A stretch of DNA of 21,354 bases from a virus. The notes under the pieces are model-generated. The model ran no database searches, was not told the origin of the DNA, and saw nothing but the letters and a program-made list of their open reading frames with translations. Below are positions 7,317 through 9,119 of this stretch, in pieces. The stretch spans positions 1 to 21,354 of the IMG/VR virus record IMGVR_UViG_3300031708_000015; one strand, 5' to 3'. The position numbers and the translations under genes are program-made. How positions within the stretch are numbered: position 1 is the first letter of the stretch; the number at the start of each line of letters is the position of its first letter.

Positions 7317-7510
7317 TCTTGCAATTGAATCCCACTATTCCGGTATGGGTAAAAGACATTGGTACAGGACAAGCAATAGGATGGATGGATTATTCAAGCG
7401 AGCATCATTTGCTTTGGGTTATAGCTCTTGATAGTAATGGAGAAATATGGACAATTCCTAATCCTCAGGTAAGATTGCAAAAGAATTTTAGTATGGGAAG
7501 ATGTTTATGA
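7313..7510 (+). CDS. Conserved small phage protein, function unknown
   Basis: A 65-residue, probably all-beta protein with the pattern LNPTIPVWV, a DYSSEHHLLWVIALD segment, EIWTIPNPQVRLQKN and a final MGR. This IP-x-DY-x-EH-x-LLWV-x-W-x-NPxVR-x-QxN pattern recurs in small proteins of many phages of proteobacteria, usually within structural gene clusters, and I recognise it as a conserved but uncharacterised family. Start and stop are both coupled to neighbours by ATGA. The number of Trp residues and the compact size suggest a small folded beta barrel; the role is unknown. Confidence 0.7.
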   Translation: MILQLNPTIPVWVKDIGTGQAIGWMDYSSEHHLLWVIALDSNGEIWTIPNPQVRLQKNFSMGRCL

Positions 7511-8178
7511 CTTTATCGTGTGATCCAGCTCAAGAAACATTGTCAGTCTGCATTCATGGTGCGCCTGTGAAGTTTGGACGATGTCTGCTTTGTAATCCAA
7601 TGGAAAGAAAGACTGTAAATATTGGCGATTTGATAGATGAGTTAATTGCGCTCAGAAATCGCATTGAGGCTTTGCATGAATATAAACTCAGGCAGATTGA
7701 TGATCACAGGAAATTAAATAAATGGCAAGAAGGGATACAAAAACAAATAAATGATGTGATAGGTTTATTTGTTAAGGCTGATTCTGTACTTGAAAATGAC
7801 ATCATAAAATTGCAACAATCCCGTGAAGCGCATTCTAGAAGTAATAAAGATATTTTTGAGAGAATTGATGGGTTAGAAAAGCTTTACTATTCATCAACTG
7901 ACGTTGAACAAGTATTATTGAATAGGATTAATGAATTAGAAGATAAATTGGAAAATATAATTCCACGTGTCTGGAGTGCAGAACAAAAAGGCTGCATTGC
8001 CATGGATGCAATTGAGGGTAATGGAAGATTTAAAGGTAAATCACCTCATAAATGTCCAATTTGTGATGGAAAAGGAAAACTATATCCTGACAAGCCAGAA
8101 ACTGGAATGATTTGGGATTTTAAGGATAATAATCAAGTATGTGATTCATGCCAAGGCAAAGGAATATTATGGGGTTAA
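7507..8178 (+). CDS. Coiled-coil protein with N-terminal and C-terminal zinc motifs
   Basis: A 223-residue protein. The N-terminus has Cys15-x-His17 and Cys26-x2-Cys29, a likely small zinc site. Residues about 35-150 are a long charged helix with coiled-coil character. The C-terminus has Cys183-Pro-x-Cys186 with DGKGKLY and Cys212-x2-Cys215 with QGKGILWG, a DnaJ-like zinc ribbon like the protein encoded at 1384-1587. I chose ATG 7507 because it overlaps the previous stop (ATGA) and has GGGAAG at 7495-7500; an ATG two codons earlier lies inside that site's spacer. Last gene of the accessory block before the leader of the scaffold gene. Function unknown; perhaps an elongated adaptor binding nucleic acid or a chaperone. 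Confidence 0.75.
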   Translation: MTLSCDPAQETLSVCIHGAPVKFGRCLLCNPMERKTVNIGDLIDELIALRNRIEALHEYKLRQIDDHRKLNKWQEGIQKQINDVIGLFVKADSVLENDIIKLQQSREAHSRSNKDIFERIDGLEKLYYSSTDVEQVLLNRINELEDKLENIIPRVWSAEQKGCIAMDAIEGNGRFKGKSPHKCPICDGKGKLYPDKPETGMIWDFKDNNQVCDSCQGKGILWG

Positions 8179-8184
8179 TACCTG

Positions 8185-8214
8185 TTGCATATTTACGCAG
8201 TTAAGCGATAAAAT
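8185..8214 (+). promoter_or_regulatory. Possible promoter of the scaffold-coat unit
   Basis: TTGCAT (8185-8190) and TAAAAT (8209-8214) with an 18-base spacer. The -10 matches five of six consensus bases; the -35 only three of six. Transcription would start near 8221 and give a leader of about 120 bases before the scaffold ATG. Position between the accessory block and the capsid genes supports a role in boosting capsid expression. Confidence 0.35.
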
Positions 8215-8234
8215 ACAGTAAATGCGACTAAGCG

Positions 8235-8342
8235 CTCTAACTTAGAGAAATTCAACCCTTTGCAGGGGAGAAGCTGCAAAGACTTGGCTTCCCAAGAGAA
8301 ACAACACCTAGGCACAGGATTAGTGCTGTAAAAGAGGTGTGA
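8235..8342 (+). promoter_or_regulatory. Structured 5' leader of the scaffold gene with occluded ribosome binding site
   Basis: This non-coding stretch folds into successive stems that can be read directly: CTCT/AGAG (8235-8238 with 8244-8247); an 8-base perfect stem 8258-8265 with 8274-8281 closing the loop GGGAGAAG; a 5-base stem 8283-8287 with 8292-8296 closing CTTC; and a 6-base perfect stem 8304-8309 with 8335-8340 enclosing a smaller hairpin (GCAC 8312-8315 with GTGC 8323-8326). The last stem pairs ACACCT with AGGTGT, which contains the Shine-Dalgarno sequence of the scaffold gene, so translation should be blocked when it forms. P22 scaffold is known to repress its own synthesis after transcription; this leader could serve a similar control here. 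I do not recognise it as a known riboswitch class. Confidence 0.55.
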
Positions 8343-9077
8343 ATGGATAACGAAACTACTACGGGCTTGCAAGAACAGGCTCCTGTTGAACAACAACCAG
8401 TTACACCACAATCTGAACCCGTAACACCAACAGAATCTAAACCTGTTGAAAAGATGTTCCCTCAGTCTCATGTGCAGGCAATCGCCGCAAAAGAGGCGAG
8501 GAAAGCGGAGGAAAGGGCTGAAGCAAGGGTGCGCCAAGAATACGAAAGCAGGATGGCACAATCTCAGCAACAGCAGGCTCCAGGCTTGGGCGGTATGCCA
8601 CAGCAACCATCGCAGGAGGATATCCAGCGATTGATCCGCCAAGAGGCATTCAATATGTCTCGAGAACATCAGGCAAAGCAGATTGAGCATGACTGGATAA
8701 GTTCAATGGATGCTGAAAAGGCGGCTGATCCTGAATTCTCGGATTTATACGATGCAATCGGGATTGAACAGCAACCAGGTCTGATATTGGCAATGTCTGG
8801 AATGGAGAACAAAGCTCAAGTTGTTAAAGACTTGGCAAAAAATCCTTCCAAATATGCAAATATCCTGATGCTTGCAAATGGGAATGCACCGAAATTGGCA
8901 CAGATGGAACTGAATAAATTATCAGCCTCCATTAAAGCCAATCAGGACGCGCTCAAACAGCCTAAAGTAGATGCTCCTCTTACCCATCTCAAAGCCTCCA
9001 ACATTGGCGGGGATGATGGTAACTATGCCACGATGTCTACGACTGATTTCCGAAGTCAGCCTTGGCTTAGAGGATAG
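8343..9077 (+). CDS. Capsid scaffolding protein
   Basis: Internal scaffold that co-assembles with coat protein into the procapsid and leaves before or during DNA packaging. The 244-residue product has a Pro/Gln/Glu-rich disordered N-terminus (about 1-35), a charged helical segment KEARKAEERAEARVRQEYES (about 50-69), a second Gln-rich linker, and a helical C-terminal half ending FRSQPWLRG. Low complexity, high charge, absence of catalytic motifs and position directly before a P22-like coat gene are all typical of scaffolds. Closest analogue by position is P22 gp8. Its ribosome binding site, AGAGGTG, lies in the 3' arm of a leader stem. Identity rests mainly on order and composition, not on a conserved signature. 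Confidence 0.8.
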   Translation: MDNETTTGLQEQAPVEQQPVTPQSEPVTPTESKPVEKMFPQSHVQAIAAKEARKAEERAEARVRQEYESRMAQSQQQQAPGLGGMPQQPSQEDIQRLIRQEAFNMSREHQAKQIEHDWISSMDAEKAADPEFSDLYDAIGIEQQPGLILAMSGMENKAQVVKDLAKNPSKYANILMLANGNAPKLAQMELNKLSASIKANQDALKQPKVDAPLTHLKASNIGGDDGNYATMSTTDFRSQPWLRG

Positions 9078-9093
9078 TTACTAAAAAAGCATC

Positions 9094-9119
9094 ATCTCCA
9101 AAACGGATTTTTTGGAGAT
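9094..9119 (+). promoter_or_regulatory. Perfect 10-bp stem-loop covering the coat gene ribosome binding site
   Basis: The 10-base arm 9094-9103 (ATCTCCAAAA) is exactly complementary to 9110-9119 (TTTTGGAGAT) around the six-base loop CGGATT. The 3' arm contains GGAG (9114-9117), the only good Shine-Dalgarno sequence for the coat start at 9127. It is not a standard terminator, because the T run lies inside the stem. It should limit ribosome entry unless opened by upstream translation, a protein or another RNA. Confidence 0.6.

Follow-up and report, generated by a model that had tools for sequence, protein, structure and literature searches.

The scaffold protein of phage P22 (gene 8) is autoregulated post-transcriptionally, with unassembled scaffold lowering its own synthesis. 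This feedback has been known for decades, and to our knowledge no defined RNA site has been assigned to it in any tailed phage. The locus described here raises the question of whether the untranslated bases in front of a scaffold gene could be such a site. The window, that is, the whole stretch of 21,354 nucleotides that we analysed, is a virus record of 21.4 kb that carries a P22-like capsid module, in which a portal gene (PF16510) is followed by a short block of genes, then an ORF at 8343-9077 and the major capsid protein gene. A preliminary description had proposed that several stems upstream of this ORF form a cis-regulatory RNA that hides the ribosome binding site. We found that positions ~8220-8342 are best explained as a 5' untranslated leader, whose transcript starts just upstream and encodes scaffold and then the major capsid protein; taken whole, with the control of scaffold translation discussed below, this reading has about even confidence. 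In all likelihood the leader is a previously unrecognised RNA device by which the amount of scaffold protein is set.

The gene downstream of the leader

The product of the ORF at 8343-9077 had no direct family match of note. Four of 35 scaffold homologues matched the PHROG head scaffolding protein, and the predicted structure (mean pLDDT 78) had the P22 scaffold 9kyw as its top PDB match, which was weak (E 0.16, prob 0.84). The top matches among viral structures included proteins named scaffolding protein, with E down to 2e-5. Judged by its position, its predicted fold and the PHROG matches of its homologues, the assignment of this ORF as the scaffold gene is sound. A conserved basic helix at residues ~41-76 of the protein is only suggestive.

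Two neighbouring features were also observed. The ORF just upstream of the leader (7501-8178) carries a CxxCxGxG-like zinc-finger segment at its end and matched the DnaJ central domain below the cut-off. At 9094-9119, the 3' arm of a 10-bp hairpin (ATCTCCAAAA/TTTTGGAGAT) contains the Shine-Dalgarno site of the gene for the major capsid protein; this arrangement recurs, with some letters changed, in L002-L004 and several other relatives, and shuffled spacers often yield 7-bp stems.

Fold of the leader

All pairings quoted in the preliminary description were present in the sequence, namely the 8-bp stem of CTTTGCAG (8258-8265) with CTGCAAAG (8274-8281), the hairpin with the CTTC loop, the stem at 8304-8340, and CCCT 8256-8259 with AGGG 8264-8267. 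Taken as a plain nested fold, the leader is barely above chance (-33.5 kcal/mol, z -1.58, with 13 of 200 shuffles equally good), and energy-based folding is weak evidence here. This near-random energy would suit the view that the stems are chance pairings in an AT-rich spacer with no conserved function. That view is contradicted by the covariation and shuffle tests given below, and we regard it as extremely improbable.

Comparison with relatives supported a structured leader of another shape. The stems at 8258-8281 and 8283-8296 exist, but the overall fold differs from the one first described and contains two tandem pseudoknots, the order from 5' to 3' being P1, pseudoknot 1, P3, pseudoknot 2 and the ribosome site (Table 1). 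The CCC and GGG bases at 8256-8267, which had been taken for a competing hairpin state, turned out to be half of the conserved pseudoknot 1. The 5'-most stem by comparison is P1, at which point the energy model chooses another.

Table 1. Features of the leader and its surroundings, in positions of the window
Feature	Position	Strand	Parts	Evidence or remark
Putative sigma-70-type promoter	8184..8213	+	TTGCAT-18-TAAAAT	Weak, 8/12 consensus match; same motif and spacing in L003 (TTGTAT-18-TAAAAT)
Hairpin P1	8228..8245	+	CTAAG 8228-8232 / CTTAG 8241-8245	Compensatory changes in L002, L003 and L004; hairpin with other letters in L005
Pseudoknot 1	8256..8279	+	S1 CCC 8256-8258 / GGG 8265-8267; S2 TTGCA 8260-8264 / TGCAA 8275-8279; loop 3 GAGAAGC 8268-8274	Both S1 and S2 show covariation, within the subgroup as well as family-wide
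Hairpin P3	8283..8296	+	CTTGG 8283-8287 / CCAAG 8292-8296, CTTC loop	Compensatory changes in L003 and L004; equivalent hairpin covaries family-wide
Pseudoknot 2	8307..8327	+	T1 CCT 8307-8309 / AGG 8316-8318; T2 GGCAC 8311-8315 / GTGCT 8323-8327; loop 3 ATTA 8319-8322	Covaries in the subgroup; letters change between subgroups
Alternative stem	8304..8340	+	ACACCT 8304-8309 / AGGTGT 8335-8340	Present in the window, not conserved; incompatible with pseudoknot 2
Shine-Dalgarno region	8333..8338	+	AGAGGT	Sequence
Scaffold protein gene	8343..9077	+	244 aa	Between portal (PF16510) and major capsid protein

No tRNA was found, and the leader contains no + strand intrinsic terminator; since this terminator is missing, a transcriptional attenuation switch is unlikely. 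A short ORF starting at ATG 8222 was considered as a leader peptide (MRLSALT) and rejected: there is no Shine-Dalgarno-like site 5' of the ATG, the peptides differ in L003 and L004, and P1 covaries as RNA, all as read from the sequences. Just upstream, ACGCAGTTAAGCGATAAAATACAG at 8194-8217 resembles a decayed pseudoknot 1 of the type found in group 3 (see below); it overlaps the putative -10 box and gave a weak model match of 7.2 bits.

Conservation and covariation

Homologues were gathered via the major capsid protein and the region 5' of the scaffold gene was taken, which gave 83 distinct leaders including that of the window (82 homologues). The scaffold protein used as search bait found no relatives. 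The leaders form three groups: group 1 (the window, L002, L003, L004 and L005), group 2 (54 mutually close leaders) and group 3 (the remainder). What the homologous leaders have in common is a hairpin flanked by two H-type pseudoknots in tandem, placed directly before the start codon of the scaffold gene. In group 2 the order is pseudoknot 1 (S1 CGT/ACG, S2 GCCA/TGGC), hairpin P3 and pseudoknot 2 (T1 CGG/CCG, T2 TGAC/GTCA).

The preliminary description had called for covarying pairs to be sought in homologous leaders, and we found them in both pseudoknots and in P1 and P3, but not in the stem covering the Shine-Dalgarno site, which is not conserved. In a sequence-only alignment of 53 group 2 leaders, 93.4% of pair cells were paired, and two-sided changes numbered 65 compared with 13.0 after shuffling (0 of 500 shuffles); when the partner strand was slid, only 21-40% were paired. 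With group 3 added via a covariance model (45 leaders), the paired fraction was 92.7% and two-sided changes numbered 144 compared with 36.5, with slid controls at 24-40%. Here, two-sided changes were seen in all five helices, S1 and T1 included, and because S1 and T1 are absent from the covariance model their covariation was not fitted. The shuffle leaves relatedness in and the slid control removes it, and the two agree. Among conserved pairs, G-U cells exceeded A-C cells (26 versus ~6), indicating that the structure belongs to the RNA of the + strand. For the subgroup of the window, 32 of 77 pair cells differed on both sides from L002-L004, with one changed on one side and one broken, in an alignment that was fitted to the structure by hand; only four close relatives of the window exist in the collections.

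The letters also changed while pairing was kept. T1 is swapped between groups (CGG/CCG in group 2 versus CCG/CGG in group 3), and T2 occurs as GAC/GTC, TCAC/GTGA or CAC/GTG. Within group 2 the letters of pseudoknot 2 are highly conserved (ACGGTGAC.CCG...AGTC), and three leaders of group 3 (L163, L206 and L084) could be parsed only in part. This strong covariation in relatives, together with the near-fixed spacing to the start codon described below, bears out the earlier proposal of a structured RNA that acts in cis and is linked to the scaffold gene. The leader is almost certainly a genuine conserved structured RNA.

Several relatives depart from the common plan. In L005, whose capsid protein is 84% identical, the leader upstream of 3187 keeps P1 and P3, and both pseudoknots are missing, a natural deletion or loss. 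Conversely, L213 (1028-1196) and L044 (upstream of 3105) carry a second tandem copy of the unit of pseudoknot 1 and P3, which suggests that leaders may grow through module duplication.

Comparison with chance

Scored with a fixed descriptor of the tandem pseudoknot, the window reached a value that none of 20,000 dinucleotide shuffles and one of 2,909 other 110-nt segments of relatives attained. Scores of at least 44 were found in 56 of the 83 leaders versus 62 of the 2,909 control segments; since the descriptor was written with these leaders already known, this per-family comparison weighs more than the single value of the window. Generic covariance models did not detect the window leader itself. 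Model R2 found L003, an 86% capsid relative of the window, at E 0.014 and in exact register with the start codon, and L003 aligns with the window. Thus the window is tied to the family via L003 and its subgroup, not by a direct model match.

Distribution of the element

Covariance model R1 matched 71 of the 83 loci at E <=0.1, with E-values that are rough owing to a short calibration; every match ended at the scaffold start codon, and 17 loci lay well outside the training group. When R1 was run on 27 whole virus contigs it gave one site each, apart from six contigs of divergent groups with none. One weak extra site, in the contig of L017, falls within an ORF and was set aside as probably due to chance. 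The exact DNA pattern for pseudoknot 2 was present in 12 contigs, and the three new ones among them likewise carry it at the scaffold start. Overall, the element is common to dozens of related freshwater phages, and contigs of the relatives are binned as Legionella, Flavobacterium and Paraglaciecola.

We also scanned, under strict filters, overlapping sets of 143, 369 and 398 bacterial genomes and found matches solely beside this capsid module, in a Legionella-binned contig and in one genome of the same order. In the latter (L295; G158 contig 26, 66500-73500), the leader precedes a scaffold gene near a P22-like portal, the capsid protein is 50% identical and T2 adds a further compensatory change (CAC/GTG). 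Its capsid module and leader are located in a 98-kb contig, probably a prophage, which gives a hint at the host group.

No leader match was found in Rfam 15 at the gathering threshold for the window and 14 relatives, and permissive searches were also empty, in line with the earlier view that the leader fits no known riboswitch class. INPHARED phages gave no meaningful match to the capsid proteins of the window, L078 and L084 or to the leader DNA, so no isolate is known.

These searches bear on the idea that a host protein or a small molecule is the ligand, with the knots serving as binding pockets that report the state of the cell, as in a true riboswitch. Ligand pockets are commonly compact knots, and the strong conservation of letters in pseudoknot 2 of group 2 would fit such a pocket. 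Nevertheless, in the several hundred genomes scanned the element was never found before a bacterial gene, although bacteria carry most riboswitches widely, and the letters of pseudoknot 2 vary between subgroups. We consider this reading unlikely. CsrA was rejected as a general regulator: just 8 of 28 contigs carry its gene, and the group 2 knots do not conserve GGA. The CsrA homologues (PF02599) on those eight virus contigs of the clade, for example at L288 2019-2204, are an observation in their own right, and CsrA encoded by a phage could act on mRNAs of the host or of the phage.

Promoter, start codon and ribosome site

In group 2, promoter-like hexamers with at least 9 of 12 matches occurred in 74% of leaders versus 3.3% of control positions, and the -10 box ends ~7 nt before pseudoknot 1. 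With a promoter just upstream, the RNA of this group most likely begins with the element. In the window, the motif listed in Table 1 points to a putative transcription start near 8220. The distance from the end of pseudoknot 2 to the AUG is 14-16 nt in 40 of 54 group 2 leaders, and 15 nt in the window. The position of the promoter, the near-fixed AUG spacing and the lack of a terminator favour an action on translation initiation over attenuation.

Three other functions were weighed against these data. The knot lies at the very 5' end in group 2, directly behind the -10 box, and large amounts of scaffold and capsid proteins are needed; a compact 5' pseudoknot could thus be an mRNA stabiliser that shields the scaffold-capsid message from decay enzymes, with no ligand and no switching. 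A plain stabiliser would require neither an additional, almost invariant pseudoknot at a distance of 14-16 nt from the AUG nor restriction to the scaffold gene, and the first structure in the window is a hairpin and not a knot, which leaves this a minority reading, though one to be taken seriously. An antitermination element, in which the RNA modifies RNA polymerase to read through downstream terminators, would explain why the structure comes immediately after a promoter, where the structural operon begins. HK022 put and the B. subtilis EAR element are of this kind, RNA structures that closely follow the promoter of a long operon, and the present element resembles them in that respect. Unlike them, it keeps a nearly fixed distance to the start codon, which antitermination does not require, and it matches nothing in Rfam; the single site per genome also speaks against antitermination, which we judge quite unlikely. 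Finally, the compact conserved fold adjoins assembly genes and might be a stand-alone structural RNA, cut off from the message and acting in trans in capsid assembly or packaging. This is very improbable, as in every homologue the structure extends up to the start codon, at a nearly constant distance, and it shows no sign of a processing site or terminator.

The preliminary description had the Shine-Dalgarno site hidden by the stem 8304-8309/8335-8340, and this part did not hold. The perfect 6-bp stem was found in the window only. Pairing of the Shine-Dalgarno strand in 28 leaders of groups 1 and 3 was the same as in permuted pairs of leaders (541 of 1,000 permutations as good), and in group 2 it was likewise no better than permuted (852 of 1,000). 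The stem would compete with pseudoknot 2, and a switch specific to the window is possible; it is not the conserved feature.

Discussion

The fold of the leader is conserved, and its strand, its position, its association with a promoter and its restriction to scaffold genes are established. We propose that pseudoknot 2 would occupy the landing place of the incoming 30S subunit, and that holding or melting it would change the initiation of scaffold translation in cis. We infer such control of scaffold translation with somewhat better than even confidence. The knots would most likely be recognised by a trans-acting protein. The simplest choice for this protein is scaffold itself, in an autogenous feedback loop; its role as the ligand is a tentative suggestion, and it should be seen as a putative binder. 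In its full form, the proposal is a tandem-pseudoknot assembly sensor, an unrecognised class of cis-acting RNA in which free scaffold would bind the knots and block its own translation, so that output would follow procapsid assembly. This we put forward as a conjecture that may well prove wrong. Against control by the leader stands L005, in which the element is dispensable, given that both pseudoknots are absent. The strong differences in the letters of pseudoknot 2 between subgroups would be unusual for one conserved binding surface, although recognition of helix shape would allow them.

In P22, as here, the scaffold gene lies between the portal and coat genes and encodes the same kind of protein, and the regulatory logic would match. 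In P22 (NC_002371) a gap of 13 nt separates gene 8 from the portal gene, and a homologous leader is absent; therefore P22 must use another site, and the parallel is one in principle only. A search of the open literature on scaffold autoregulation or phage structured RNAs found nothing relevant. The preQ1-I and similar riboswitches consist of a small H-type knot, often with an A-rich third loop, close to the ribosome site. The present knots are likewise small, H-type and close to the ribosome site, but their loop 1 is 0-1 nt, they have no Rfam match, and they are tied to one phage gene rather than to metabolic genes.

In function, the leader comes closest to the operator of T4 gene 32, although it is not a member of that family. 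In T4, gp32 binds a pseudoknot in its own leader for autogenous control; that leader consists of one ~28-nt knot and, between knot and start codon, UUAAA/UAAA repeats that are weakly structured and span more than 40 nt, and among related phages the letters of the knot vary while the fold is kept, for which recognition of helix shape has been proposed (PMC535899). In both systems the leader carries an H-type pseudoknot before the ribosome site of its gene, with a fold that is kept despite changes in letters. They differ in that the present leader has two knots plus hairpins, with the last knot 14-16 nt from the AUG and no UUAAA/UAAA repeats, and in that its gene encodes a scaffold, a putative autogenous binder, instead of a single-strand binding protein.

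These results describe a compact, covarying RNA element that belongs to a single gene in dozens of P22-like capsid modules, and its exact pairs make the question of scaffold feedback testable. They add a structured RNA family that is absent from Rfam, and a tandem pseudoknot design for work on RNA structure. If the assembly sensor is true, scaffold feedback in tailed phages would gain, as far as we know, its first defined RNA element.
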